A stretch of 64,000 bases of DNA from Chaetoceros tenuissimus (taxonomy: Eukaryota; Bacillariophyta; Thalassiosirophyceae; Chaetocerotales; Chaetocerotaceae), in contig BLLK01000020.1 in NCBI GenBank assembly GCA_021927905.1, positions 2,170,001-2,234,000 on the forward strand, read 5' to 3'. This document shows positions 1-51,304 of this stretch, piece by piece. The position numbers and the translations under genes were made by a program. The first letter of the stretch is position 1. The number at the start of each line of letters is the position of its first letter. The notes under the pieces were generated by a model. That model saw only the letters and a program-made list of their open reading frames with translations. It was not told the origin of the DNA and did no database searches.

Positions 1-3000
1 AAATGCTACAGGCGATTTTCCACCAAAGAAGTCGACACCATTCGTGGAGACCTTTACTTCGTAGCTGTTACTTTGAACATCTTCTCCGAGTAAACTTGGC
101 CCTTTTGTTCCTGTGATTGATGCCAAAGCTGGTGTGGTGCATTGAATTTGATCATTTGCGATCCAAGTTCCACTCACAATGTAGTTATCAAAAGAACAAG
201 AGAGATCTTTTTCAACATATGGACGGGAAATGTTTTTTCCAAAAATGATAACCTGCTCACCACCGCTACTAATACCACTTGTTGGGTAAATGGATTCAAT
301 GACAGGAGTTCGTGTCAAATAAAAAATCAAAGTCGAATCAGTAAACTTTGTGATACCGCGACTATGTTTAATTCCAGTTGAGACAAAAATTGAACGTTTG
401 TGCACATTATTATAATGTTCGATTGTCGGGGTCAGGCAGGAAATGCCACCTTCTTCTATGGTTGCATTTGTAGTGATATATTTGCCAAAAATGCAGACAA
501 AATCATATAGCCTTGTATCAGATTTTGATGGAAAATTCTCTCCCTGAATAAAAATCCTCGTACCACCTTGAAAAGATCCAAATCTTGGTGTCATTTTCCA
601 TAACTTCATAACTTTAATGTAATGAAATTCGACGTAAGGGATATTAGATTGTGCGTTTTGTTCAAAATTGTTAGTGACGGTGAAGACTCGAAGAGGGATT
701 GTACCGTCGATATTTTGGGGAGGCACTGGGCATGATAGGGAATCCTGTGAAAGTACATATGCTGGAACATCTCTCTCATCAAATCTGCAAACCATTGGTG
801 CACTGTGTACAAAGTTTGTGCCTAGGATTGTTACATTCACTCCTCCATGGACTGTCACGTATGCCGGCTCTACTGAATATGCCAAAGGATTTTGCCTGAT
901 CTTAAATATTCCAACATTTTTGTAATGAACTTCGTTGAAAGATATGGATAGAAGCACATCTGTCTCGCCGTTGATAAAGGGAACATTGCAGATGATACCA
1001 TTATTCTTCTCCCATGAACCTACAGATGTCGTGGCACCGAAAGCACAAATGACTTTATATATCTCTGGGAGATTGGAAGCTGAAATGTATACATGTGATC
1101 CTTGATAACCTTCACTTGGTTCAAAAGATTCAATCTGTACTTCTTCGTATGTCATGAGCATTTGATTTGAAAAAGGATCAAGTTTTTGATCAAATTGACC
1201 ATTATTTGATACTGTCACTGTGTGAAAGCTCTGACTCGCTCTATTCTGGGGACTAATATCATTCTTTTGCAATTCGTTTGTGTTTACTTTGCATAGAACT
1301 TCTTTCTCGCTAACAAAGATTGCTTGATTTACAAAAGTGGATCCAAGTTTACAACTCAACTCCGGTGTATCATGGAAGCCGGTTCCAAATATTTGCAATG
1401 TATAATCGACGTTTGCATAAACTAAATTTGAAGGCAATAATCCAGACATTGTTTCGTCTTCATGGTATAGGAAGTAAGCTTCCCAAGATAGTGTGGGTGA
1501 AAGTAGACGGAACAGTATCCTGTTTCCGAAATTATCTTGGATAAGGTTTTCTGGATCAATGTTGATGGCTGGTGGTACTTCGCAGGATGCATGCGTATCG
1601 TTTAAAATCTGTAAGCCAACATTCAAGGAACCAAATTCGCAAGTAGTTGCGTTATGCAGAGTACTCAATGCTAACCCTTTTATTGTCACAATTGTACCTC
1701 CTCTATTCCCACCATAAAGAGGATACACAGAAGTTACTGTGTTTGCCACTTCAACTTTTAGTGGAATGAAATTACTGTAGAAAAGCTCATTGTTCTGTTC
1801 ATGAGTGACCTCAACGACAGAAAGTTTGTAAGTACCAGGTTGGAGATTCATTTCGCTCAAATCACACTCCAAAAAGAATGGTGATAACCACTGTACCTTC
1901 CCTCGAAGGTGATCAACTTGACAAAATAACAATTTCTCGAATTTTGAATGTCCAAAGTCTGTTCCTTTTAGTTTGATGGTACTCTTCACGTCAGGAGATA
2001 TGATGGTTGAACCAGCAGAAGAAATCTCAAAAGAAGTGGTATGGACCAAAAGTGGATCGTTGTATCGAGTAAAATCAAACCCATTGTTAGAAAGCTCGAG
2101 GTAAAAGTATCCCCCACCTAAGATTGGAGGGACTTCAAAGGTATGTTCACCGTCTTTCTTCTTGATTATGTCAATTTCTACATACGAGTCATCTGTAAGA
2201 GATACTAATCTCCCCATTATTTCGTTCCCCAGGAAGTTTGTCTTTACTACGATTGTAGCTCCAGAGCTTGAAATATGCAAAGGCTGTACAGAAGATATCT
2301 CCACTGATTCCGTGTACTCAAAAGTGAAGTTACTCGGATGAATAAGGTAATATTTTTGTGTCTTCTTTGAAAGTAGCTCTAGCGATAAAGGAATGTCACC
2401 GATAACTTTACTGTGAGGAACCATACATTGTATCTTTTTGCTATTTAGCACATGGCCAACAACCCGGGAACCGAAAAAATTACACGCAAAAAGATACAAA
2501 TCACTATCTAGACTCCAAGTGTCCTGTTCCAGGTAAAAATGAACAAATGTTCCACCTTGAGCGAATGCCTTTCGTGGTAGCAGGGAAACATTGCCAAAAC
2601 TTTGCTTAATGTCAAATCTCATTTGATTTCCAAAGCTGTAATTTTCATTGCCGACAGATACGAAAGCTTCTCCTGGAGGCATAATAGCGGGAACACTACA
2701 AGATATAGACTCTTTAGAGTGGGATTGGAAAGGAGCTTTGTAGAACCTGCCGTCAGAGTCGTGGAATCGGCAAATCATAGACGATTCTGACTCAAATGAC
2801 CCTGAAAGAGTCATGATGGTGTCGATATTAACTGCAACTACGTTTGGATCTACAGCTACTATCTCATTCCTTGGATTGAAAACGTGTGCCTTATTGGATA
2901 TGTAATTATCCACAGTTCTCATGACTTGAACGGTAGAAACATTCTCCTTATTTGAGATCTTACAAGTGATGATACCTCTTCCACTATGATATTGAGCTGG

Positions 3001-6000
3001 AGTAGGATTGATCACATGTGCGTTGAAGACACACATGTATTCAAAATCACTGATAAGATTACCAACGTGAATTTCAACAACATGCCAATCATTTAAAGAT
3101 CCCGAGGATGACAAAATTCTACAAGCCTTGCTTGGATGAATATCGGGCAGGTATTCCAAATGTATGCCGATATTAAGCGAATCTTGTCTCGTGATTGGTA
3201 CAGACAAATCCCATTTTCCATCCGCGGGAGGAGCTTCAAAGAATAAAACACTATCACTTTCAACAATCATCTCACTGCAATGATGAGTGTCTCCATAAGA
3301 TTCGTCGATACAAATAAAGGTTAAATCACAATCTTTGAAGGTGTTGAACTTCGTTCCAGATAGCGTCACTAGCCCTCCAAGAGGAGAAACATAATGAATT
3401 GATTCATCGAAATTGGGCTTCATTCGGAAATAAATGATTTTTACCTTGGAGAAAAAGTCTCTTCCATTTAAACTCGCAGTAACTTGTGTGCTTTCAAATG
3501 CATCAGCATTATCTGGCAGCTGACATTCAATGTTATCAATGTTTAATATTCCTTTCGTGAAGTCATTGCCAATTTGACAAACAACAGAAGTCCAACTACC
3601 AACTTCAACTGATTTGCTTAACCCAAGAGTTACTGTACGGTGGATCCCTTGGATGAAGAAATTAGGTTCAATATTGATTATAGATGGATTTTCAAATAGC
3701 AAAAGTTCCGGGCCTCTTTGGTAGTTTTGACCATAATTGAATGAGATGTCACACGTTACCAAGGTGTTCTGGTGATCATACAATTCGTTCGAAATCTTCA
3801 ATGGAATTTGAAAGACAATACTTGTGCCTTGTATTGCTGCCTCGACTTCAAAACTACGTCCAAGTTGAATCTTGATAGCATTACTGTCGATATTCTCTTC
3901 TATAGCTTTCAAATTCGCAGCAATTGACGAACAATCAATGGAGATGACATTGTCTACGTCTATTGACACGGCTGCTGGCACCAAATTAATTGCACCAACA
4001 TCTAGTGCAACAAACGTAAAGGCATCACAATCTCCGAAACAATTAATGTCATTTCCAAAAATATCTACTAGGGAAAATACCGACGCGCGAATTCCATTCC
4101 GTGGAAATGGAAGGAGAGCGGATGGACAATGTAACGTCGATTCCGTCTCAAAATTTGCAACCGTCGAAAAACCATCAAATTTGCAAATGTAGTGGAAGTC
4201 TGAACTGAAGCCATGTCCGTTCACTGTGATAAAAGTCTTATCATTTGGAGGTCCCGATTTTGGCTTCATGTTTTCTATATAAGTCTCAGGCATCACTTGA
4301 AGTATACCATGAACTGTGTAGAAGTCTACTAAATTTGAACTGATTGAGACCATGAGAGACTCGTCGAGTTTTGTAGGTACAAGACAAGTGAGTAATTTTG
4401 AGGAAATCCTCTCAGCTCTCACGACCTCCAGATCAAATCGACAGTACCATTTTGACTTTTTCAGAAAGCCTTCACCTGAAATGCTTAAAAGATCGCCACC
4501 CTTGACAACACTCGGAGACAAATGCAAAAGTGAAAATGGTTTCCTGTAGTCAAAGAAATGTCCAGAGTGAAACCAAATCTTGTCCGAATTTCTAAGGTAA
4601 ACAGGCACCAATGCAGGTTTATCTACGTTAGGGGAAAAACATGACAGAATATCTGTCTCGGGGTTATGAGTTGCTTCAACCTCTATGGTATTGCCAAAGC
4701 GACAATAGAGATTTGACGTGTTTTTTAATTCATTGAAATGGAAGGAAACTTTTGTACCCCCTTCAATGGAACCACTGGATGGAGTCATTGATATTATTTC
4801 ATGATCTTCCTTTGTATATTTGAAATCCTCAGGTGCTTCGGTATAGTCGATGCCGTTTAGTGATACAGCGAAGGAGAAAAATTCATCATGGGCACCAAGG
4901 ATTTTTGTTGGTGTTTGACACATCAAAGCAGAAGCCGTCACAAGGGTAGCTGCCACAACATGATTTCCAAATTTACAGGTTGGAGATAAAACCTCTAAAT
5001 CATCCTCAATTTCAATCCAGTTTCCAGTTGCAACAACCTCAGTCCCTCCTATACTGTTTCCAATCTTTGGTTCGTAATCTTCAATAATAAAGTCGGAAAA
5101 CACGAAAAATTTCGGTGGGTTAGTAGCGCTAGTCAAAACCATTCCAGTCTCCGGCATTTCCAGTTGAAATACAACAAAACCGAGAGTTTCTTGTGGTGGT
5201 GAGGTGCACTTGACAAGAGATTCCGAGTAAACTTGTGCTAGAACTCTTACTGTACCAAACCGACAAACTATGGACATACCATTGACAAAATTTTCGCCAA
5301 CAATTGATACAGTTGTACCGCCCGCTTCACTTCCGCTTGCTGGAATCAAATCATCAATTATCCATGGGTCAATGAGATGAAAGAAAAATTCTTTTTTCGC
5401 GAAAGAAGACCCTACACGTAGACGAAATGAGAGTTTTTCCTTCTGTCTTGAAATTGGTGTTGGGCATAATATTTCATTTGATGAGACAAACGATCCATCA
5501 AGGACAAACTTTCCGTAGTGACAAGCAACAGAAGAATTGCGAAAATTTGAACCGAATATCTGGATTATATTAGACTGTGAAACGACACTTTGTTGTTGAG
5601 AGAGATACGAGATAGTTGGTCTTTTTTCCACTACGATTTTCTGCGTTTCATCCAGCAGCGATGTAGAACTACCCAAAAGCTCAATATCCAGTGACACATT
5701 AATTTTTCCATCAATATTTTCAGGAGCAAAACATGATACAGTATCGTGGGAGATGGCTGATGAAATAGTTTGTGTACCATCAAGTTTGCATGAGATCCTG
5801 TTCCAAAACTGTCCAAAGGTTCCTTTGACAGTGAACCACTCATTCGGACTAATCACACTAGGTGTTTGGGTTACAGATGGAACTGGAAATGTATATATTT
5901 CAATATGATCGAGGTGAATGCAGTTTTGGTCGTTCGGGCATATTGCCACTTCCAATTTTCCTTCATGCTGTATCGCAGGAAGTTCACATACCACGTGTCC

Positions 6001-9000
6001 AAATTCGTCAAGATGACCTTCAACATGGTAGAACTCGATCTCATTCCAGAGTTGTAAAGTAAATTGTTTTCGTCTAAATTGAACTTCTTCATTATGAAAG
6101 ATCAATTTCTGCCTTGAATCTGTGACAAATACAGTGGGATAGATAGAAGTAAGTTTCGGGAGAACATCACAGTCAAAAGGCGTTCGCGAGAACTCAGCAC
6201 CATCAAGGGAACGAAGTACTAATTCCATAGTCCCATGTCCTCTCACTGGGCATTTGACTTCACAGTGAATTTCAGATTCAGACGACAACAAGACACGCGC
6301 AGGGTACACCTTGGTGTCCTCCAACGAACATGACCACTCAGCATCGAGAAAGTGACCCGCCATTTGAACAGTAGTGGTTTGCCCTTGAATCCCATGTTCA
6401 GGCTTAATGCCAATGACGCGCTTGGAATCATCAATTATATGGTATCGCTCAAAACCATAACTGAATTCCTGACCATTAAGAGACAAGCGAATATTTATGG
6501 AACCTTCGTAGTCGTGACTTATAAAACTTGATAGAGGACAGACGACAAGCTTATTAGAATCATCCCAATACCCTTTTGTAATATCCGTCTCATGAGAGTG
6601 AATATAATGCTGACAAAAGATGTCTTGTCCAGCTTCAAATTGATGGAACCCATCTTCAATTTGAACCGACACCATGTTTTGATACGAATGACTAACAAAA
6701 CGAGGCACAACATTGACAGGATTGGGTGCCATTTCGTATGAATATACCCCTACTTTGATAAAATCAAAACCATTCTGTGTAATCTCCAAAGTAACTTGGA
6801 GATCTCCTGAAGATGGAGGAGCAACACATGAAAACTTTGGATCGGATCCCCAATATGCTTGTACAAGAGTATTTCCAAATTTACATTTTGTTGCAGGAGT
6901 CTTTAAAAATATACCTCTTGATGCCGATATTGTTATGTTTGTCAAGCCCTGCTCATGTCCAATCATAGGAAATGCAAAAATTTCTGGAGTCTCAATGAAT
7001 GAAAACGTAGAATCAGAAGGGTGGTAATATCCAGTGGTATTGGAGAGAATTCCAAGTCTAGCCTTCACAGTGCCACGCGAGGTATGTTTTGAGACGTTAG
7101 GTGTTTTACAAGTCCATTGAACCTCGTCTAATTTGTCGACTTTTGATGTATACCTGTGCCCTTCAATATCAAAAACGCAGTTTACCTCTTCAGATCCCAC
7201 AAAAATGTTATCATATTCACGAAGGGTGAAAAATATGCTAGTGCCACCTGTAAGTGAACCAAAATAGGGCTGCCATGTTACTGATGGCAATCTCATGAAC
7301 TCGACTTGCGTGGTCTCTAATCCGACTTTTATTCCCTCCACGAGAATATTGAATGGAAGTAAACCGACTTCACCTCCAGAGTTGGGCGATAAACAAATTA
7401 TCTGTGTCGCTGAAAGAAAAGTTGCAGTAGTATAGAGTTCTGGTCCAAAAGCACATTTCAAATCCTCATGATTGAAGAAATTGGATCCATGTATGTGCAT
7501 GATTGACCCCCCCTTTGTAGAAACTCGCGATGGCTCGATGTTACTAAATGAGAATGGCAAAACATATTCGAATACTAATCCACTTTCACTCCACACCTTT
7601 CCATCGACCGAAATATCAAATCTAACTAGACCCGGATTTATTGCAGCAGGTGAAATACAGTAGAAATCGTTCACGGAAGATATGTCTGCATCTACTACTT
7701 CCTCTCCAAAGCGGCATTTTGCACCAAAGTTTGTCATAAAATTTGACACAGAAACTAAAACTTTTGAACCTCCCAGCACAACTCCAATTTTAGGGTGTAT
7801 GCCTATAATATTCGTGTCAGATGCTATTGAAAGAGTTTGATCCTGTAGACAGAAATCAACTCCGTCATTTGTACTAATACTTAGACGTAATGCCAATGCA
7901 TCATCATAACTTTGAAGCGACTTTGGAACCGTAAACTCTAATACATCAGTCAATGTAGTTTTTACTTCTTCAATTTCTGTATCTCCAAGTTTCACAATTG
8001 TTCTTGAAAAAGGATTGTGTAAATGTTTACCGGTCAACGAAATAGTTGATGCAACAGAAACCTTGTAAGTTGGTGAAAGAGAATGCACTTCCGGCATATG
8101 AGTGTAATGAAATTGTAGAGGGTCTCTTGTGACAAAAATACTATTTCTAGAAAGAACAACTAAGACAGATTCAGAACCTTTGAGCGACCGGGGAGCAACG
8201 CAATGTACTTCACTTGAGGATAGTACTCTAGCCGACACTTGTTGAGTACCGAAATGACATGTGATTTTATCTCCTGTATCGAACGCAGTTCCTACAATCA
8301 AAACTTTTGTGCCACCGCTTATTGGACCACTGGACGGATATAAATGTTCCAGGACAATGTTCTCTTCAACAGTGATTTGCAAATCATTACTCGCTATTTG
8401 GTTGTAACCATCTTGTATTGATAATGAATAGACTCCAGGCTTTAATGAGGGTACTTTGCATTGTACAATCTGGTTCGAAATGAAGCATGCATCTGTTTTT
8501 ATGTCCTGATCAAATCCATGTAAAATACAGACAACATCACTACTTTCATAAAAATACTCGCCAATAATTGTAGCATCACCTCCTGCGTCAGCTAAAAGTT
8601 TACTGGGTCGTATCTCTTTCAAACGCAATGGAAGCCGGTGATGAAGTGGTATTTCGTTTGAATAATCAAGGCAATTGTTTGAAATTCGAAGTGAAGATAG
8701 AACAAGGTTCTTGGTAGACAGCGACATTATCGCTGGGATCTCACAAACCACTTGCTGTTGAGATATGTACTCGGCATACGTGGAAAGAGTCTCGTTTTCA
8801 AAAGAAATAGAGCAACAGAGATTGGTTGACTCGATGAAATTGTCTCCGAAAACGCTCAATCTAGATTTCTGAGACATACTCACAGTATTTCGACTTGCAG
8901 CTGTGAGGATTATGGGCGAAAAGAATATCACTTTCCGAAGACTGTGGGCGGATTGATTCGAAGTGGGGTAGTAATTAATACCTTGCTTAAATACAATCGA

Positions 9001-12000
9001 GATTTGTGCATCCAACGTCCCGTCAAGTATACCACTGTTTATAATTGGGCTATGACACTCTAAGAGGTCATCACTGAGAATTTCCGCTAACATGTAAAAA
9101 TGCCTTTGAGAGTTCAGCACGTGAAAGTCACAGTACAAATCTTGCTCGATGCTTTGAATTCCAACTCCTTTCAATTGGACCCTGCTTTCAGAGTTAGTTG
9201 GAAGTAAATTTGGAGCTGCAGACAGAATTGATAGCACAGGATAAACTTTTAGTTGAGAGGAGGGATTGCATGATGATATTGTACCGAACATTAAGATCTC
9301 AACACTAGCTGATCCTAATGATATAGGAGCTATGTTTTTGGAATCGCAAATGACTTCATATGGAGACACAAATTTTGCATCAACTATTTCAACGCTGCGC
9401 AGAAAATGAAACCTGCACTTCAATTTTGGTACGTCCATAAATCCAGACCCAAAGACCCTAACTTCAGTTCCTCCGTCATCGTGCAAATGTGAGGGTTCTA
9501 CTTCAATCAATGAAGGTGGTTGTACAAATGTGAGCTTTAATGGACTTGTTAGAAAGTCTTGACCGTTGATTGAAATATCAATAGGACTCATGAAACTTCT
9601 ATTGAAGATAGGCACGGTAAATTGGATCAAACTCTCCTTGGTGACTATTCCATTCAATGTATTGTCAAGGATTGAGATGTGAACCATGTCGTTTTCTCTC
9701 ACACCATTCATATTTGCTAGCTCAATGGTGACCTCACCGGTTTCTTTTGAGCATAATACTGCTGGCGATAAGCTTTTCACAGCTAAACCTTCAACATACA
9801 CGAACGAATCCTGAGAAGATATAAATGAATTTCCATTGTCGAAACTAAGTCCAATTTTCACAGGACCAAGAAAGTTACTCGGAGGACTTGAACACTTCAC
9901 AAGGTATTGACTCTTCACGAAGGCTTCTACAAGAAGGTCTCCAAATGAACACAAGACACCACCTGAACCTTCAATGAATCCTTCACCATAAATGCTTACT
10001 TCTGATCCCCCATTTGCCCAACCTCGAGTTGGAGTGAAGCTTGCGATATGAGATGCCATGGTATATTTGAATTGTGATATCTTTTCAAAGTCAATTCCAT
10101 TGCCTGAAATGGACACATCCACGTAAGGAGAGAGCAAAAAAGATGATCTTGCTGGTGGAATGGAGCAAGTAATCATACGATCATTAATCCAAGTCCCGCT
10201 TTCCACTACCGAGACATCAAATCTACATTTCGGACTCATTCTAGGAAATTTGCCATATATAGTCACATTTGTACCTCCTAGTTCACTACCAATTGTTGGG
10301 TACATTGCTGTTACGTCAAAGTTTGAGTAGACTGTGTAGCTGGTAGGTTTGTCAGACATTACTTGATATGGTTCTGCTGACGTTGTGATATCTAGTGCGA
10401 AAATTGTTGCTCGATCCTTTCGCGTCATTTCAACATGAGGACTTAAACATTGGATTCTGTTTTTTTCTACAGACAGAACAGGAGTGCGATATTGGAAATG
10501 CTTGTTGAGGAAAGAACAGCATATTTCTGTGGTATCTACATTTGGAAATGTCCCGTGTAGTGTCAGATGGGTTCCTCCCGATGATGGACCAAGTTTTGGA
10601 TAAAGTTCTTCAAATTCAAAAGAAGAATAGTACTTGAAGACCACACCACTACCTTCAGTCCAATCATGTCCATTGTTGGAAGATATCTCAACATTCACTT
10701 TATCTAAGCTATTTTCATCGACTTTTACTTTGCACCACACAAGCGTAGAATTCACAAAAGACTCTGCAAAAGTAGTTACTGACCCAAAGCGACACATAGT
10801 AGAGTTGGACTGAAATCCATCTCCGCGAACAGAAACCAAACTTTCCATTCCAGCCACACCTACAGTAGGTTGTACTTGATTGATCTGTACTGCATTTGTA
10901 ACAAAGAAAGGCAAAGACTCAGTTGCACTAACAGACTGACCATTGGTCAAGACTCTCACCAGTGTTTCTCCAATGGGTAAATCACTTGGCACTTCACATT
11001 CAAGGTAATTATCAGTTTTCCATTTGGCAGCAGTCGTAAAGTGTTGCCCAAATTGACAAACCATTCTAGAGCTCCTGCAAAGGCTGTGTCCATATATCTT
11101 GACATTTGAGCGCAAATTTTCTGGCACACGACTTGGAAATATTGAATGTATCTTTGGAGTTTCATGTATGATGAAATTCAGATCATAGGCACCGTGGTAG
11201 ATGTAACCTCCATCAAGTGATATGGCAATAGATGCATTTTGGATGGGTCTATTGAATGTTGGCAAGATACAAACCATCTCGTCATTGCTCAAAACAGTCG
11301 CATTTATGATGGATCCACCAATTTTACAAAAGGATAAAGTCGAGAATCCATGTTTGAAATCACTTCCACTTAAAAATATCATCGTGCCACCATTCAAGGG
11401 TGCATTTGGAGGGTCAATACTAGAAATAGTTGGCTTCTTCGCGAATATAAAGTTGATGTTTGCCCAATCAGCTTCTACGTCAACTCCATTGTTTGATAAT
11501 GTCAAAGGCACTTGCAGCGGTAAAGAATCATTGGTAATGGGTGCATCACAGTGAATCTCTTGATCTGATATGAATTTGGCCTTTGATTTGAATGATCCAA
11601 ACATGCATAAAAGCTCCTCAGTATTAATGAAGCCATTTCCCAACACTTTGACCGTTGTATTCGATGAACCAATCTCAGGTTCAATTGAATAAATTGAAGC
11701 AAGAATATTGAATTGAAACGAATCGGTATAGAGAAGTTTGTGGTTATTCTCATTTTCAAATGAACAATCCAATCCTTCAACGAGTTGGAATAAAACGGTT
11801 CCTGGTCTTGTTGGAGGCGAAGTGCATGTGGCATTCTGACCATGATTCCAATTCAAAGGATCCACCGCTACACCGTCGAAGCAGCATTGGATTATGGAAT
11901 TTTTATCAGAAAAGTAGTCACTTGTGATTGTAATCTCTGTCCCTCCTAACTCACTTCCATATAGAGGATTTGCAATTACATCTTGCAATAGATATTCATG

Positions 12001-12159
12001 AACATCTGATTGTTTCTCTACAACTGGTTCGGCTTGGGCAACTTGAATGAATTAGATTTGTATCGAAAAAAGAAACTTTTAGAATCGCATTTGAAACTTA
12101 CTTGAAGAAGCAGCCGAGAGAAAAGCTGAAAACCCCGTAGCCCAAAGAAAGCAACGCAT
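1..12159 (-). CDS. Giant secreted IPT/TIG-repeat protein, 3' end beyond the left edge
   Basis: Two exons (12159-12102 and 12041-1) joined by a 60-nt GT-AG intron give at least 4033 codons without a stop in the window. The frame read from the start codon is the same frame that runs out at base 1, which argues against further introns or frameshifts. A signal peptide (MRCFLWATGFSAFLSAASS) is followed by about 43 repeats of roughly 90-95 residues. The typical repeat opens with a P-x-x-G-x-x-x-GGT-x-V-x-I-x-G-x-x-F pattern, followed by C-x-F-G and C-x-x-PP, which is the IPT/TIG immunoglobulin-like fold of plexins, Met-type receptors and fibrocystin-like proteins. Many copies lack the GGT motif (diverged), and paired cysteines recur in most. 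The signal peptide and absence of any cytosolic domain suggest a cell-surface or extracellular adhesive role, but this is inference. The C-terminus, and so any membrane anchor, is not visible. Confidence 0.88.
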
Positions 12160-12891
12160 TGCATAGAGAGTAAAGGCAAAACAAGTTCAAGGTGCAAGCA
12201 ATCTCTGTTGTAAAAAATCTAGAGTCGAGTCACCAAAAGTCAAATAGGAAAAATCAATGTCTTCAATCAGGAAACCAAACATTTTTCAAAAAATTTCGAA
12301 TTTGATTTTCAATTTCGACTGGAAATGCCTCTTCAAAACATAGACAAAAAATCTCTCCCATTCCACATTTGATGTTTTTCCTGAATAACTACACTACAAC
12401 CCTGCCAATGACTACGATAATCATGGATTTGAACAGAACTGTAAATATTTTCAACCTTTTGCATCTTTCAAGCTTCTAAACTTTTACAGTCGCAGAAACT
12501 GCATATACATATAAACCAATACATAGTATCATGATAGTAATTAAAATACAAAGAATTGTTTGACTGTAATTTGGTATAGAAATGCACAATAGAGAAACAT
12601 CACAACAAAAAGAGATGGGAAATATGAGAGATGAAGCCAACTACCAAGTCGGCAAGGTTACTTCTAGAATGCAATATTTCTACTACTGGTGCTACATACG
12701 TACAGACGTAGTAGATCAAGTAGAAAAAAATAATAAAGATTGAGGACGGAGGATGAGTGATCAAAAGATCAAGACCAAGACATTCAATAATAATAATATT
12801 CTCAAGAATATACGTATTAGATGCCGCTAAGTCTCTTTTCAACAGAGGAAATTGTAGCGAGAACACAAATTTCTTAGGATTAGTAGAAAAT
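12160..12891. other. Intergenic stretch, no gene seen
   Basis: AT-rich DNA holding the promoter side of the IPT/TIG gene and the 3' flank of the trigger-factor-like gene. The open frames here are short, have no recognisable motif and overlap the downstream gene in another frame. I see no RNA gene or repeat. Confidence 0.6.
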
Positions 12892-41877: not shown

Positions 41878-44800
41878 TCAAAATTGAAGTGTTGTTCCAG
41901 ATGCACGATCATTATTCCGCGGAGGCGGGGATGAAACTGTTATTTCGGATGAAGTCGATCCTCCTAGAGTTGCTGTTCCATTGCTAATAGCAGGGACGGG
42001 AGCGGGTGCTGGTGCGCTTATCATCTTTGGCATCACATATCCTAACCATGATGTATTTGTTTTCCCAGCTTCAATTGTCTTGTAATCTTGTGCGTCAAAC
42101 TGTAGCAAAGTTGCCAAGACAGGAAGTAAACTTTCCCTTTCAGAGGAGCCAGGTGGCTTGGATAAAAATTGCACGACTATACTCTTCAAATAGTCCAAGT
42201 TCACATCTTCTCGACGATGAATTCGACAAAGTTCTTCAACCTGTTTTTCAGCTTGTTTCCTTGCTAATTCTGCGGATGCCAATTCGTCATCGTGACCCTG
42301 CAATCTTTCAGTCAATTTCTGTACCATTTGATTTCGCATGTCGATTTCCAATGATGCAACAGACTCACGATTACTCTGCTGCTCGGCAAGTTCAAAGATT
42401 CTTCGATCGCTCAAAGAGCCTTTATCCACTTCTTGTTGCAGTGATTTGATCCTTTTCTTGAGCTCTTGACAGTCCGCCTCACGCTGCTGGAGTAGCTTTT
42501 GAGCAGCAGTACTCTTCTTAGCCATTTGATGTTGAAGAGTTTGTATCTCCCGCTGTAGGGATTCGCTCAATTTAGCCTTTCTATGAAGATCTTTATCAGC
42601 CATACTTTGAGCTTTTTGTTCGAGAGCAGACTTTTTAGCTACCTCAATTTCATTCTGCGCATCTTCGAGATTCTTTTGAAGTCTCTCCATTTCTTCCTTA
42701 ATGACATTCAAATCGTCATCCTTTTGTCCTAGATCGTAGAGTGCTGCTTCCAATTTTGCTTGGCTTTCAGCATTGGTATCATTCAATTCAGCCAACTGTG
42801 ATTCAAGCATGCCCACAAGAGCAGTTCTTTGTCCATGGGACTTCTCACTAGCTTCTTGCTCTGCCTTGAGTCGGTCAAGCAATGCACTATTTTGCGAGGC
42901 CTCTAGCTTGTATTTATTCAATTCCTCTCTTGATTTCTCAAGTTCGGTTTCAGTGGCATCAAGTTTTGCCACCAATTTGTTTGCAGCAGCAAGTTTTGCT
43001 TCAAGTTCGTTCTTATCAGTTGAAATTGTATTCAAACTTTCTTGGAAGACATTCATTTTACCGGTCAATTCTTCTACTAGATTGTTTTTCTTGGAAAGGT
43101 CCTTTTGCAGTTCGTCAATTCGAGATTTTAATTGTTGCTGTTCTGTATTCATCTTGTCTTGTTCTGCTAAGAGAGATGAGGTGGTTGCTTCGCTGTTTGC
43201 AACAGAGCTGCTCAGTTCCTTCTTTGCTGCGTCAAGCTGGTTTGCAAGGGTTGCTGCTGATGCCATCTGTTCAGATAGCTTCGATTTTAGAGCATCACAC
43301 TCCTTTTGAACAGTGGCATTCATTTCCTGACTAGAAGACAATTTTTCACATAAGTCCGTCTTCTCTGCCTTCATTTTGGATTTAGTTGCCTCTAACTCTT
43401 CTTTCATTTTGTTCACCTTTTCTTCAAAATGCGTTTTCAAGTCAGAAGTATGTTTTTCCATAGTTTCTTTCAGAGCAGCTTTCGTTGATTCGTGTTCACT
43501 TATAGCACTCTGTAGCTTCTCGTTGAATTTGACCTTCAATTTTTCAAGTATCTCCCTCTTCTTCGCATCATGTTCAGCAGTAAGTGTTTGGATCTTCTCC
43601 TCGTATTCTGACTTCACCTCCTCTATTATTTTTTCTCGCTCACCTTCCAAATCTGTTGCATCAGATGCCGCCTGTTGCATCGTGGCAATTTTTTCAAGAA
43701 GTTGTTTTCTTTCCTCTTCCATGTTTTGTTCTAACAATGATATTTTGCTATTCTGCTCTTCAAGCTGAGCTTCCATAGTCTTCTTCTCGGATTCAAGACT
43801 TTCTATCTTCGATTGGATATCTTCAGATGAGCTTTTCGATGAAGACTCCATCTCTTCTTTAAGCTTTGAGATAGCCTCATTATGTTGCTCGATCAGGGCC
43901 TCCTTTTCTTTAGCAGCGTTTGCTAGCTTAGTCTGTGCAGCTTCCTTGACCTTTTTCGCCAATTCTAGGGCTTTAGATTTCTGGCTATCTGTCTTTGCGA
44001 GACGTTCCTCGTATTCGGCTTTAAGTTCATCAAATTCCTCAGTTTTCGCAGAAATTGCCGAAGCCACAGCTTCCTCGATGCTTTGTGAATGCTCAAGAGA
44101 TACACTTTGTACTTTAGATTCCATTTCTTTGAGAAGACTTGCTTTCTCTTCATTGTACTTGTCTGTAATTTCCTCAAGAAGTTTTTTGCTATCAGCGAGC
44201 TCCTGCTTCAGTCCGTTCTCTCTTTCTGTAGTTTCAGTTTTCATCGCCTCGACTTGACTTTGCAGTGAAGCAATTTCTTCTTTGGTCGAAGATTCTTGAG
44301 AGGCTAATATTTTTTCAATCTCGACATTGTGTGATGCTTGGATTGATGCTTGCTCTGTAATTAGAGACTTGTTAGTGGCGGTCAATGTTTCAATCGTTTG
44401 TCGTAATTCCTCCAAAGAAGAGTCATTTGAAGCTATTTGGTCCTTCACTCGTTGAGTTTCACCCAACGCATTATTCAAATCTTCTGTGAGAACAGAGTTT
44501 TTCTCGGTCAATTCATCTCTTTCTGTTTTCAAATTTTCTATGATTTGCGACAATTGTTTTATTTCCTCTGAAGACGATTGGACTAATTCTTCATTACTTT
44601 GCATTTTGCAAGTCAATTCATTCAACTCATTCTGGCTTCGAGTGAGGTCTTGTTTGAGTTCGGCAATGTAGCTAGACTCCTCTGAGTTTGCTTCCTGTAA
44701 GTCCTGCTTTGCCTTTTCTAACTCTTGCTTAGTTATCTCCAAAGTACCGTTAATTTCGTTAACTTGGGCAAGTAAGTCCTCGTGACTCTTCTTCAGATCA

Positions 44801-47800
44801 CTGTACTCAGATTTTAACAAGTTTGTATTTTCGTCGTGAAGCGTTTGAGTGTCTGATAATTTTTCTTCCAGGGACAGAATTACTGATTCTTTTTCAGTCA
44901 AAGTAGCTTCTAATGCCTCGTAATTAGTGCCAAGTTGTTGTTTCGAGGAAAGAAGTTCATTATGAGTTTCTGATAAACGGGCTAATTCCTCACTTTTTGT
45001 ATTCAAAGATGCACTCAACTCAGCCCTCTCACTCGTGACCTTGGATATTTCAGCTTCGTGACTCTTCTGGATTGTTTCCAATCTTTCGTCAAATTCAAGT
45101 TTTTGCTTGTTGACAATGTCTTCCATCATGCTCTTTTGTTCCTTCTCGCCGTCTTGTACTGACGATTGTAAAATCTCGATATTAGCTTGAAGTTGGCTCA
45201 CTTGTCCTCTTTCCTGCTCTAGATCACTTCGTAATTGAGTAATCATTTTATTTGCACCAGTCAATTGGCTATTCAATGTTTGTACTTGCTCATTTATTTG
45301 AGTTTTTCCTGCTTGAAAGTCTTGTCTTTCTTGAGTTAGGTTTTCTCCAGCACTTTGCTCTACTTCTTGTATTTTCTGTTGGTACGTAGATTCAATTTCA
45401 TTCTTAGATGTGAAAGCTTCATTGACTTTATTTTCAGCATCCTTCTTGATTTGCTCAATCTCCTCTTTGTAGCGCTTTTCCAGTTCTAGTAACTCAACTT
45501 CGTGTTTTCTCTCGAGTTCACTTTCAAGAAGCTCCTGTTCATGTAGATTACTATCTTTCAGTTCTTTTCTTAATTGTTCTATGTTCTCCATGTGCTGCTT
45601 CTCTGTTTCTTCGTTGTTAGCACTTGCCATCTCAACCTCACGACGAGCAATTTCATCCTTCAGAGCTTCTTGCTCTTCGATATGTTTTGCTTTTAACTCC
45701 TCAAGTGCAGCTGCACTATTTGAATTAGCCTCTTGAAGTGACTTGTCAATTTTGGCTTCGTACATTTGCTTCATTTGAGCCATTTTCTCCTTTACTTTTT
45801 CTTTGAAAGTTGCCAAGGTTGCTTGCTTGTCAACATCTCCTTCATTTTTCAACTTCTCCATTTCCTCCAAGTGCTCTTGTTTCATTGATTCGAGAGAGAT
45901 TGTATGACCTTCCTCCAACTCAGCGATCTTTTGCATCGAAGACTCAAGCTCATTTTGAAAATGAAGTTTCTCTTCGTCATGATTGGATTGAATTTCTTCG
46001 AGCTTCAATTTGTGCTCCTCTTCAAGGGCTCTTAAATTTTCATTTTCTGAGGCATCATTGCGAGCTTCAAAATCTGCGATGGTCTGCTGCAGTTTCTGCT
46101 CTGCCTCGGCCTGCAATTGCTTTTCAATATCATAAAGTTTCTGACTATGAACATTTTCAAGCTCCTCTCGAAGACTCAGTATTTCAGATTGATGCTTCTC
46201 TACAAGCTCACTTTTCACCCTCTCAACTTCTTCTATGGCGTTGGAATTACAGCTATCAGTTAAATCACTTCTCAAATTTTCCAACTCTTCATGATGTTGT
46301 TGCTTAATGTTTTGCAACTCTAAATTATGCGATTCTTGAATATTTTTCAATTCACTGTCCAGTTGGGACTCAGCCTCAGATTTCAATGATATTATTTTCT
46401 CTTCAAAGCCTTGAGTTAATTCATTAGAAATTTCCTCCTTTGCTGCTTCGATTTCTGCAATCTTTCCGTTTTCGAGGGAAACGAGCGCTTCTTCGTGATT
46501 TTTCTGAATGTTGTTGATCTCATCTGCATATTTTTGTTTAATTTCATCTAGTTTCTGTCGAAGAGAAGCATTATCTGTTGATAATTGTTCGAGTTCTTCC
46601 TTGTGTGAGACTTCTAAGCTTTCTACCTTCTGCTTGAATTCTTCCTGCATTTGTGCCAAACTCTCATTCTCAGACGAAGCGAGCTCCTCTTTTTCTTTCA
46701 AGATCTGAGCAATGCGAGACTCAGCTTGCTCAAGCTCTTCCTTGTGTGAGACTTCTAAGCTTTCTACCTTCTGCTTGAATTCTTCCTGCATTTGTGCCAA
46801 ACTCTCATTCTCAGACGAAGCGAGCTCCTCTTTTTCTTTCAAGATCTGAGCAATGCGAGACTCAGCTTGCTCAAGCTCTTCCTTGTGTGAGACTTCTAAG
46901 CTTTCTATCTTCTGCTTGAATTCTTCCTGCATTTGTGCCAAACTCTCATTCTCAGACGAAGCGAGCTCCTCTTTTTCTTTCAAGATCTGAGCAATGCGAG
47001 ACTCAGCTTCTTCTGTGGTGATCTGTAATTTCTCAGCAGCCTGTACAGACATCTCTTCCAATTCCTTTTGTTTTTGTTGCTCCAATCCTTCACGAAGATT
47101 TTGGAGATCGAACTCATGTTTCTCCTTCATTGCGGAAATTTCTTGTGCATGTTCTGAATCTCTATCTGGGTTGCTGGCAATGGCATTTTCAACGGCAGAC
47201 TTGTGCTCCTCTCTCATAACTTCAATTTCGTTACTGTGTGCTTCTGAAATATCATTTAATGCATTTTCTCTTTCAGCATCTTTCTCTTGAGAAATATTTT
47301 TGATTTTCGTTTCATACATGGACTTCATTTCAAGCATTTTGGCTTTTACCTTTTCTTTCAAAATATTCTTCGTTTCTTCTGCATTTGCTTTCAGATTAGA
47401 GACCTCTTCTTCGTGCTTCAATTTTAGTTCTTCAATATTGGTACCTTGTTCAGACTGTGCTTCTTGTAATTCAGTATTTAAAGACAAAATTTTCTCCTGA
47501 AGGCGGTCAATTTCAGTCTGATGTTCACTCTGTATTGTACTCATTTTCATCGCAAACTCTTCTTGTTGTGAAAGTAGTTGATTTTGAAGCGATGATACAT
47601 TCTCTGCTTGTTCATTCGATGATTCTTCACTCTTGCTCTCAAATTCAGCCTTTAATTGCTGGATAGCCATTGCTGCTTTTTCCTGGGCATTTTGTAACTC
47701 TAATTCCTTTTCCTTAGAAAGCTCTTCACGCAAATCTTGAAGTTTCTGCTCGTACTGAGCTTCAATCTCTGACTTGATTTCATTAAAATCATTCTCATTA

Positions 47801-49116
47801 TGCCCCTGGTTATTTAACGCTTGCATATGGTCAGCTTTCAATTGCTCGATCTCAGCTGCATGTGCCTTCTTCAATTCATCTATGACATTCGTGTCAGCTT
47901 CGGCACTATTAGATGCTGCGGAGGCATTCTTTAGTTTTTCTTCATACGCATTCTTCATGGTAATCATTTTGTCTTTGACCATTTCCTTCAACTTTGAGAT
48001 TGCAGCGGCTTTTTCTTTTGCTGCATCTTCCTGAATCTTTTTTATGTGCTCTTCATGACTCTCAGAAATTGCCTTGACTCTATTTGCATGTTCAATTTCT
48101 GATTCTTCGAGTTGTCGTGAAAGAGCGGTCATTTCTGCTTTTGCTTGCTCTAAGCTATCATTTGATAATCCAGAAGTTTGACCGTCGTTTAATGTGGAAC
48201 GCAATTCCTCCATTTCTTGTTGATGCTTAGCTTCACAGTTTTCAACGGCTTGACGAATAGCTTCTTGTAACTTTGCTTTCATGTCATCATTTGAATCCCC
48301 ACTGATGCTATCTATTGATGCTGCTGCTTCTGCAGCCTTCTTAGCTTTTTCAACTTCTGCTTGCTGCTGCATAGACATGACCTTGTATTCATTCTGGAGT
48401 TGTTGCAAAGTCATTTGGTTACGTTCATCAGCTGCTCTCCAAGCTAATTGAATCATTCCAATTTCGTCAACTTTTTCTATATCACCATCTTGATTGCCAT
48501 TAGCATCTGATTCTGCCTTTTTGGCAGCTTTATCAGCATTAAGCATTGCTGCCTTTTGAGAAGCTTCTTCCAAATCAATATCAGTCAAAACTTCATTCTT
48601 CATAATTGCAAGTAACCTAGACTTATCATTTTCAGCTGTTTTGACTCTATCTGTAAGTTGCATACGAAGTTGTGCCAAGGCTTTTACTCTTTTGTTCATT
48701 TTCGACAATATTTCCAATAACTCCTCTTTGGACACAGAGTCAGGATCTCTGGAAGCCAATGATGCATTGTTGTTTGTATTATTTTCTGCATCATTGTCAC
48801 TACCAGAAACATTGCTACTTTCTCCCACAGCCGCTTGATCTTGCTGTAATCCCCTTTGTGGAGATCCATGTTCTGATAATTTCGATGCTTGGAAATCTTC
48901 TACTTTTTTGGCAGCTTCTTTTGCTTTTGCATTGAGTTCTTCCGCTTGTTGTCGAATAGATTGACCAAGATTCTTGAAACCACCGAAGCCCTTTCCAAAG
49001 CCCCCAAATGGCTAATATTGAGATAAGAGATAAATGATTAGATTCATTTCTTGAAATACTCATGATTACCATTTTTCAGTTGAACATACCTTGTTGCTTC
49101 CATCTTCCTCCGACAT
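41878..49116 (-). CDS. GRIP-domain golgin, giant coiled-coil Golgi tether
   Basis: Exons 49116-49090 and 49011-41878 give 2386 residues. After a nine-codon first exon the N-terminus is Gly/Phe-rich (PFGGFGKGFGGFKNLG), followed by an amphipathic helix. From about residue 110 to 2250 it is almost continuous charged coiled coil. The GRIP domain near the C-terminus reads DVNLDYLKSIVVQFLS then SLLPVLATLLQFDAQDYKTI, with the Tyr that binds Arl1-GTP at the trans-Golgi kept. A Pro/Ala/Ser tail of about 60 residues follows. Golgin-97/245 relatives capture endosome-derived vesicles. It contains a recent threefold 47-residue tandem repeat and an older module used three times. The match to GRIP is strong; which golgin it corresponds to is unclear. 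Confidence 0.92.
46592..47009 (-). repeat. 141-bp tandem repeat, three copies, in the golgin coiled coil
   Basis: The anchor TTGTGTGAGACTTCTAAGCT starts at 46601, 46742 and 46883, an exact 141-bp (47-residue) period. The copies are almost identical at the DNA level; one clear difference (CTACC versus CTATC) changes Val to Ile. Confidence 0.95.
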
Positions 49117-49632
49117 GTTTGAAATGACTTCGGATGAATAGACTTTCTGTCAGGGAAGTTTCTGCTCCTTCAAAATCTGCAAAGTGCTTTCAGATGCTTC
49201 TTCCTTCTCTAGCACTGTCTGCTCTTAGTTGACTTAAGTAACACAGTGCTATGCAACAGTTGATTAGGTTTTGTTTGGGTTCCCTCTTATGTGTAATTAG
49301 TATAAACATCATAGATCACTCCTTCTCTCTTGATCTTCGTTATTGCACCTTTTATTAGCTCTTATCCCCTAAATATTTTGGAGGGCATTTCTTCTCCATC
49401 AAATTAAATTTAGAAAACTCCCCTATTCTTGCTATTTGACACGATTATAGACTATGTAATAGCCTATTGATTCGCTAATTAGAGGCTGCTTGCTACACGC
49501 AACTTCTTCAACGGCAATCTCCTTCGTTGTGAGCAGGCATATTTCATATTTCCTCCTCACCGCCGAAAAAAGCACAGCAGAGCTTCCTTCCGTAATAGGA
49601 TACAACATTAGTGTCATTCATTAGAATTAACT
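49117..49632. promoter_or_regulatory. Divergent promoter region, golgin and V-ATPase B genes
   Basis: 516 nt between divergent starts. AT-rich. A minus-strand frame at 49432-49617 has no motif. Both promoters must lie here, but no element is recognised. Confidence 0.45.
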
Positions 49633-51304
49633 ATGAGCCACCAAGACGAGAGATTTATTCCACCAAGACAAAAGCTTGATCAGCTTAGTGTTGTCAAGGA
49701 TTATGCGGCAGTTCCACGTCTCGACTACCGGTGAGTGATGAGATGTGTTGGGTCAAAAGGCACAAAATGACAAAGATATGTTTTCGTCGCCTTTGCGGTG
49801 GTTGCTTCTTCCCTGAATTCCAATACTGACCCTTTTTGCTTCTTCTTCTTCTTTCCCAATGTTGTGATGTTCTTAATTATATAGTACTATTTCTGGTGTA
49901 AATGGACCGCTTGTTATTCTTGACAATGTAAAGCTTCCTAAATACGCAGAAATTGTAAATCTTAAGCTTGGAGATGGAACCGAACGTTCTGGACAGGTAC
50001 TTGAGGTAGCAGGATCTCGTGCTGTTGTTCAGGTATTCGAGGGAACTTCTGGAATTGATAACCGTAAGACCCAGTGTGAATTCACCGGTGATGTACTCAA
50101 AATGGGAGTTTCCGAGGAGATGCTTGGACGTTCCTTCAATGGATCCGGAAAGGTTATTGACTCTGCGCCAAAGGTTCTTGCTGAGGCATACCTTGATATC
50201 AACGGTCAGCCTATCAACCCTTCTTCCCGTGATTACCCTAAGGCTATGATTCAAACCGGTATTTCTGCTATTGATGTAATGAACTCCGTTGCTCGTGGAC
50301 AGAAGATTCCTATCTTTTCTGCTGCAGGTCTTCCTCACAATGAGGTAGCTGCACAGATTGCTCGTCAGGCATCCCTTGTTCAGCAGAAGGATACCATTGA
50401 TGGACACGAGGAGAACTTCGCTATTGTTTTCGGAGCTATGGGAGTTAACATGGAAACTGCTCGTTTCTTCCGTCACGATTTCGAGGAGTCTGGTGCTATG
50501 CAGCGTACTGCTCTTTTCCTTAACTTGGCGAATGATCCTACAATTGAGCGTATCATTACCCCACGTCTTGCTCTTACCACTGCAGAGTACCTTGCTTATG
50601 AGCGTGACCTTCACGTACTTGTAATTCTTACTGATATGTCTTCTTATGCTGATGCTCTTCGTGAGGTTTCTGCTGCGCGTGAGGAGGTTCCTGGACGTCG
50701 TGGTTACCCAGGTTACATGTACACAGATCTTTCTACCATTTACGAGCGTGCTGGACGTGTTGTTGGACGTAACGGTTCCATTACCCAGCTTCCAATTCTT
50801 ACCATGCCTAACGATGATATTACACATCCAATTCCTGATCTTACTGGATATATTACTGAGGGACAGATTTACCTTGACCGTCAGCTTCACACCAAGGGTA
50901 TTTTCCCACCTATTAACGTACTTCCTTCACTTTCTCGTCTTATGAAGTCCGCTATTGGAGAGGGTATGACTCGTTCTGATCACGGATCTGTTTCTAACCA
51001 GCTTTACGCGTCATATGCTATGGGTAAGGATGTAATGGCTATGAAGGCAGTTGTAGGAGAGGAAGCTCTTTCCATGGAAGATCACCTCTACTTGTCATTC
51101 CTTGAGCGTTTCGAAGGAAAATTCATTGCTCAAGGACCATATGAGGCTCGTACTATTTTCGAGTCTTTGGATATTGCTTGGAGCATTCTTCGTGCGTTCC
51201 CTAAGGAGTTGTTGAAGAAGATTCCAAAGAAGACTCTTGATGAATTCTATGCAAGAAGATCTGCAGCAAGAGAGGATATGAATAAGGCAGATGGATCAGC
51301 ATAA
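49633..51304 (+). CDS. V-type H+-ATPase subunit B
   Basis: Exons 49633-49730 and 49885-51304 (154-nt intron) give 505 residues, normal for this subunit. It is the regulatory nucleotide-binding subunit of the V1 catalytic ring, which acidifies vacuoles and Golgi or endosomal compartments; in diatoms also the silica-deposition system by inference. Seen: [20 protein letters not shown] (start of the beta-barrel), [60 protein letters not shown] and [20 protein letters not shown]. As expected for B, the P-loop position has SAAGLPHNE and not a catalytic Walker A. Codon use is highly biased, like eL27. A minus-strand open frame across it (49877-50890) is a shadow of that bias. Confidence 0.96.

Follow-up and report, generated by a model that had tools for sequence, protein, structure and literature searches.

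Tandem IPT/TIG repeats stand outside the cell in plexins and in the receptors MET and RON. Fibrocystin (PKHD1) and fibrocystin-L have a very long TIG ectodomain, a signal peptide and a membrane anchor, and polycystin-1 combines a long immunoglobulin-like (Ig-like) array with a cysteine-rich part and 11 helices. The present study concerns a gene, called G1 here, of the diatom Chaetoceros tenuissimus, which starts in a stretch of 64,000 nucleotides (assembly GCA_021927905.1, contig BLLK01000020.1, positions 2,170,001 to 2,234,000), referred to as the window, and runs on past window base 1. The predicted protein places a long TIG array upon a membrane part of about 11 hydrophobic helices. It belongs to a known kind, that of giant Ig-like surface receptors; what is new here is a membrane core that the libraries searched do not name. 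We put the chances at about even that G1 belongs to the type-1 group of a family of giant polytopic surface receptors in stramenopiles, acting as a tethering or adhesion receptor and possibly as a mechanosensory one. The predicted anatomy of G1 is well supported, and its function is what we infer from it.

G1 has tandem extracellular repeats like those of the plexins and MET/RON, but it has many more of them, about 11 helices and not one, and no Sema, PSI, kinase or GAP domain was found in Pfam scans of exons 2 to 4 (E<=0.05). The very long TIG ectodomain, the signal peptide and the membrane anchor are shared with fibrocystin and fibrocystin-L. On the other hand, Pfam scans of G1 and of its paralogue G2, described below, found no G8 or parallel beta-helix domain, and a polytopic core replaces the single helix of fibrocystin. 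The long Ig-like array upon an 11-helix membrane part recalls polycystin-1; however, the repeats are TIG and not PKD, and REJ, GPS/GAIN, PLAT and channel domains were not found in the same scans of exons 2 to 4. Three stramenopile entries named 'IPT/TIG domain-containing protein' (CTEN210_17444, TL16_g04487 and Poli38472_002229) resemble G1 in having a TIG array, a stalk and a homologous polytopic core. These three are of type 2, whereas G1 is of type 1 with a 960-residue linker.

G1 is encoded on the minus strand. Exon 1 (12102..12159, 58 bp) carries the start codon and the signal peptide, the latter judged by eye, and its GTAAGT..TTCAAG splice keeps the frame across intron 1 (12042..12101, 60 bp, GT-AG, phase preserved); joined in frame to exon 2 it reads MRCFLWATGFSAFLSAASSIAQA. 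Within the window exon 2 covers 1..12041, where its frame runs through 4,013 codons with 0 stops; each of the five alternative frames of this interval has 171-325 stops, and none stays open for more than 116 codons. The complete exon 2 measures 17,970 bp or 5,990 codons (contig coordinates 2164072-2182041) and is followed beyond the window by exons 3 and 4 of 2,693 and 4,518 bp. The three introns (60, 68 and 73 bp) are all GT-AG and all in phase, and the four exons give a predicted protein of 8,412 residues. This model, intron 1 included, was drawn from the sequence by itself, with splice sites picked by eye for frame continuity. The tiny signal-peptide exon and the single uninterrupted large exon described in the first-pass annotation were thus recovered, and neither an in-frame stop nor an assembly join, either of which would have undone that description, appeared in 1-12041. 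An assembly artefact or collapsed repeat was considered and rejected: no DNA direct repeats of at least 30 bp were found in 1-12200, the window agrees with the whole-genome contig sequence, and the stretch has zero N. Moreover, an open reading frame (ORF) on a separate contig of 27,995 bp, P0027, spans G1 residues ~38-6000 with no residue missing and 73 substitutions in all; this contig possibly comes from another strain or haplotype. G1 is a real giant gene with its frames intact.

The TIG/IPT array in the window comprises G1 residues 44-4025 (25..11970, minus strand, as are all G1 positions given here). Pfam TIG (PF01833) matches the window protein at E=4e-174, with 565.6 bits against a curated cut-off of 20.9. 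An iterated hidden Markov model (HMM) built from the repeats themselves finds 40 TIG repeats in this part, or 35 at a stricter domain threshold; as a control of the threshold, 200 shuffles of the first 6,000 residues of G1 gave 2 matches in total. The HMM list leaves three repeat-sized slots without a TIG match, at residues 1325-1430 (7810..8127), 2679-2806 (3682..4065) and 2884-2993 (3121..3450), and from their spacing these would be diverged TIG repeats. The 40 repeats and three slots agree with the earlier estimate of about 43. In the entire protein the HMM counts 50 repeats, 46 in residues 44-4587 and 4 in 5551-5933. A C-x14..26-C pair is present in 44 of the 45 strict TIG matches of G1 and in 42 of 43 in G2. 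When the structure of three consecutive repeats was predicted (residues 130-400, 10900..11712), Ig-like sandwiches were obtained, as had been anticipated; MET and IPT3-6 of plexin A1 both align with the predicted rod, and the fold also matches the TIG domains of EBF. The window repeats are assigned to IPT/TIG by profile score and by predicted fold together, and the three whose structure was predicted come out as plexin/MET-like IPT sandwiches.

Following the gene past base 1, as the first-pass annotation had proposed, led through two more exons to the C-terminus and to a membrane anchor of about 11 helices. G1 consists, in order, of the signal peptide (~1-23), the TIG array (44-4587), a linker (4590-5550), four TIG repeats (5551-5933), a cysteine-rich stalk, a juxtamembrane ectodomain, ~11 hydrophobic helices (7581-8080) and a tail. 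The linker of ~960 residues has no Pfam match (residues ~4590-5550); by eye, some five repeats can be made out in it with the pattern T..(D/E)(L/I)...L..L, a type that also occurs in other giant stramenopile proteins. The stalk has 68 cysteines in 985 residues, and the corresponding stalk of G2 scores 34 bits with Ephrin_rec_like / GCC2-GCC3 (PF07699), above the cut-off of 23.1. By hydropathy, the core of G1 has 11 peaks and that of G2 has 10. Lysine and arginine make up 43 of 280 residues in the predicted inner loops and tail start of G1, versus 15 of 171 in the outer parts. The tail carries a CxxC pair, a putative metal site, and acidic serine motifs. The pattern C..C-x40-75-C..C, for which chance matches were uncontrolled, is present in the tails of 26 of 29 type-1 and 48 of 62 type-2 rows of the core tree described below. 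It misses G1 itself, whose CxxC motifs are by reading ~37 apart, tighter than the pattern permits, and at least 5 of the 14 type-2 rows that it misses end no more than 160 residues past the motif that defines the tail. Since exon 2 is longer than its visible part and is followed by exons 3 and 4, the statements that the protein is secreted and has no other recognised domain are valid for the visible part only. Within the window the protein is indeed almost only TIG, but a linker, a cysteine stalk, a juxtamembrane ectodomain and a membrane core come further on. The TIG filament that had been taken to be secreted makes up the leading portion of a polytopic receptor.

The paralogue G2 (6,360 residues; annotated as CTEN210_17444, 6,328 aa) has a layout similar to that of G1, with TIG array, cysteine stalk and membrane core all in one open frame. 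As these parts are joined in a single frame, their linkage in G1 is not produced by splice choice. The two cores match at E=6.6e-72 with 24-28% identity, and a core search of the C. tenuissimus genome found nothing besides G1 and G2. Searched with its core, G1 finds 26 proteins with a homologous core. The C-terminal part of G2 finds 61, counting G2 itself, and every one of these has TIG in its precomputed Pfam annotation, even though the query was taken from behind the array; that search admits only proteins of 0.55-1.75 times the query length, so the large size of these relatives is built in. Organism names are attached to 12 of the 61: C. tenuissimus, Triparma, Aureococcus, eight oomycetes and one metagenome-assembled genome (MAG) labelled archaeon, a label taken to be a mislabelling. 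The stramenopile lineage was confirmed by look-up for four relatives. The relatives of the core family thus include diatoms, a bolidophyte, a pelagophyte and oomycetes.

From 93 proteins fetched, 89 yielded a core (P0027, P0028, P0032 and P0033 gave none), and with G1 and G2 the core tree has 91 rows (P0029 is G2 and P0001 is almost G1). It was made by a quick method with a midpoint root, some long branches and support only from the Shimodaira-Hasegawa-like approximate likelihood ratio test (SH-aLRT), and it places 29 rows with G1 (type 1) and 62 with G2 (type 2). Type 2 includes oomycetes, Triparma, Aureococcus and G2, while the named type-1 members are diatoms only. The TIG array precedes the core in the G1 gene model and, within a single frame, in G2 and in the type-1 relatives P0030, P0031, P0092 and P0093, where TIG, stalk and core lie within one ORF. 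The long core-bearing relatives from the G2 search show a TIG array with 8-65 TIG matches, then cysteine motifs, then helices; type-2 proteins such as G2 have one extra TIG match behind the stalk. As read from these sequences, the same order of parts recurs in other stramenopiles and the architecture is not peculiar to one microalga. In the alignment of G2 with P0035, 0.4-16% of G2 residues per 500-residue step stand against a gap over residues 1-5500, and identity is 27-37% over residues 1-4000 and 54-65% over 4501-6360. The alignment with P0036 is similar, with two steps gappier. The order of the array is conserved between G2 and P0035, both of type 2, in the aligned sequences. Collinearity among type-1 proteins is unsupported, because G1 aligns with P0093 or P0030 only with many gaps. 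It was also observed that a two-TIG block of G2 (contig C54) occurs twice in near-identical form, at residues ~1338-1492 and ~1873-2029, a pattern suggestive of recent duplication or conversion within the gene. Among 51 TIG places in the genome, the sole one outside G1 and G2 is at C14:1194769-1194918 (+), a 26.6-bit match within an open frame of 800 codons.

The membrane core falls outside all family libraries searched. Exon 4 of G1 gives no family from Pfam (E<=0.05) or NCBIfam. In the A1 set of 19 members, Pfam at E<=0.1 returned Ephrin_rec_like, TIG, GPR_Gpa2_C (E=0.025), DUF6304, LapA_dom and SPC25, in one member each; the last four are taken as chance. Sequence search of the PDB with the core gave nothing significant, with one match at E=0.3 and six apolipoprotein matches at E=0.12 or worse. 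In an AlphaFold2 model of the relative P0020, residues 106-590 contain twelve helices of at least 20 residues, with a predicted local distance difference test score (pLDDT) mostly of 80-94 there; over the whole model the mean pLDDT is 73.2 and the predicted template modelling score (pTM) 0.54. Foldseek against the PDB found nothing for this model at E<=0.001, the top row being Otop1 (E=0.094, probability 0.18). A second fold comparison (VIA) gave rows mostly for tail residues 953-1163, so that it barely tested the helix bundle. A viral or bacterial origin was also considered and rejected: core-alignment scans of viral and genome contigs gave 69 and 9 pattern matches, and tblastn confirmed none.

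A TIG domain is about 4 nm long. Because of the signal peptide, the N-terminus of G1 should lie outside the cell, where ~46-49 TIG sandwiches, almost every one containing a cysteine pair, would form a long rod of roughly 0.2 micrometre. After the rod would come the linker, the four TIG repeats, a stalk resembling ephrin-receptor-like repeats and the juxtamembrane ectodomain. About 11 transmembrane helices would anchor the protein, with the CxxC pair and acidic serine motifs of the tail in the cytosol. The distal repeats could be binding a partner on another cell, the wall, a surface or the adjacent membrane of cell or flagellum. The rod may transmit the bond or pull to the polytopic core, which would in turn signal inward. 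With a long tether outside the cell, a multi-helix anchor and a conserved tail, G1 is most simply read as serving adhesion or mechanical sensing, and it is probably located at the cell or flagellar surface. The role in cell recognition or attachment suggested by the first-pass annotation is still plausible. A stronger proposal is distinctly more doubtful and is put forward tentatively: the family may represent an undescribed class of stramenopile receptors predating the split of oomycetes and ochrophytes, with a conserved-order TIG tether of ~0.2 micrometre, a membrane core without a recognised fold and a cytosolic metal-binding tail, converting contact or drag at the cell or flagellar surface into a signal.

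Published data give indirect support, as the papers concern TIG domains and not these proteins. TIG is among the top-10 Pfam domains of the Phytophthora cinnamomi zoospore proteome but not of the mycelium or secretome (PMC8360494). In a marine heterotrophic flagellate, IPT domains, which are filed there under cell adhesion, are 1.62-fold enriched in genes raised in stationary phase (PMC7852580). The accessible text on the Plasmopara secretome lists IPT/TIG as different, with the direction shown by colour and unreadable there (PMC7217449). Matches to the string 'tig' in the text seen of PMC12223298 and PMC3471859 were other words, and the part seen of the C. tenuissimus genome paper gives 41.0 Mb and 38.9% G+C (PMC8613185). 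Searches of open-licence literature aimed at TIG/IPT proteins found no paper on this stramenopile family.

Several points weigh against a receptor role. The location, ligand and signalling of G1 are what we infer, and term searches of the main text of papers on a zoospore membrane proteome and on flagellar-gene decay gave no mention of TIG domains. Ephrin_rec_like scores only 17.3 bits on exon 3 of G1, below its cut-off, and simple hydropathy counts range from 5 to 13 helices across the long relatives. The length filter of the G2 search would let short relatives without a TIG array escape. Since the core model is of P0020 and not of G1, with no significant fold match, a signalling or channel role is unsupported.

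A narrower explanation, that G1 sits specifically on the flagellar membrane (in centric diatoms, that of the male gamete) and serves gamete recognition, surface coating or flow sensing, is unlikely but survives best among the alternatives. Most named stramenopile relatives have flagellated stages, and 11 of the 12 relatives with organism names are stramenopile, the other being the MAG. C. tenuissimus retains an IFT46-like gene, and four of its open frames encode a dynein heavy chain MT domain, so a role in the male-gamete flagellum is possible; the prominence of TIG domains in the P. cinnamomi zoospore proteome fits the same picture. However, Aureococcus, a coccoid alga taken as non-motile, holds a 7,593-aa member (P0081), which argues against flagella only. 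The relatives from Chaetoceros neogracile and Ditylum, whose source names we take to denote transcript collections, seem transcript-derived and probably come from vegetative cultures, and the two papers on flagella searched above likewise lend no help.

It could also be that G1 works as a polycystin-1 analogue, the TIG rod gating an ion channel formed by the 11-helix core, as the shared gross plan and the 11 hydropathy peaks of the G1 core would suggest. This is decidedly improbable, as the exon scans described above found neither PKD repeats nor any of the other polycystin domains, the polycystin channel domain included, and the Foldseek comparison of the P0020 model gave no match at E<=0.001, the weak Otop1 row standing at the top. 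That G1 is a secreted TIG-only filament or adhesin, with exons 3 and 4 forming a separate gene, is very improbable and was disfavoured once the gene had been followed past base 1: domain matches inside the window are nearly all TIG-type and the joining of exons 2, 3 and 4 was read from sequence, but the exon 2-3 and 3-4 junctions are in phase across GT-AG introns of 68 and 73 bp, and G2 and the single-ORF type-1 relatives unite the same parts.

Few surface receptors are known in diatoms and oomycetes, though both recognise mates, surfaces and neighbours. As a giant polytopic surface receptor family across several stramenopile lineages, G1 and its relatives would be concrete candidates for a part in sensing contact or in adhesion, and a knock-out is feasible in laboratory diatoms. 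TIG ectodomains are most familiar from animal receptors with a single pass, and this family suggests that another lineage of eukaryotes has joined them to a core of many helices.

Two further loci were noted. At C13:293364-294508 (-) Ephrin_rec_like matches eleven times, in part with overlap, and the open frames concerned have 525 and 1,050 codons; from its sequence this appears to be another cysteine-rich gene. Elsewhere in the window, 41878-48828 (-) holds a 2,316-codon open frame, with a strong AT skew of about -0.2 to -0.33 over 42001-50000; inside it lies a 141-bp (47-codon) tandem repeat of 2.9 copies at 99% (46595-47009).

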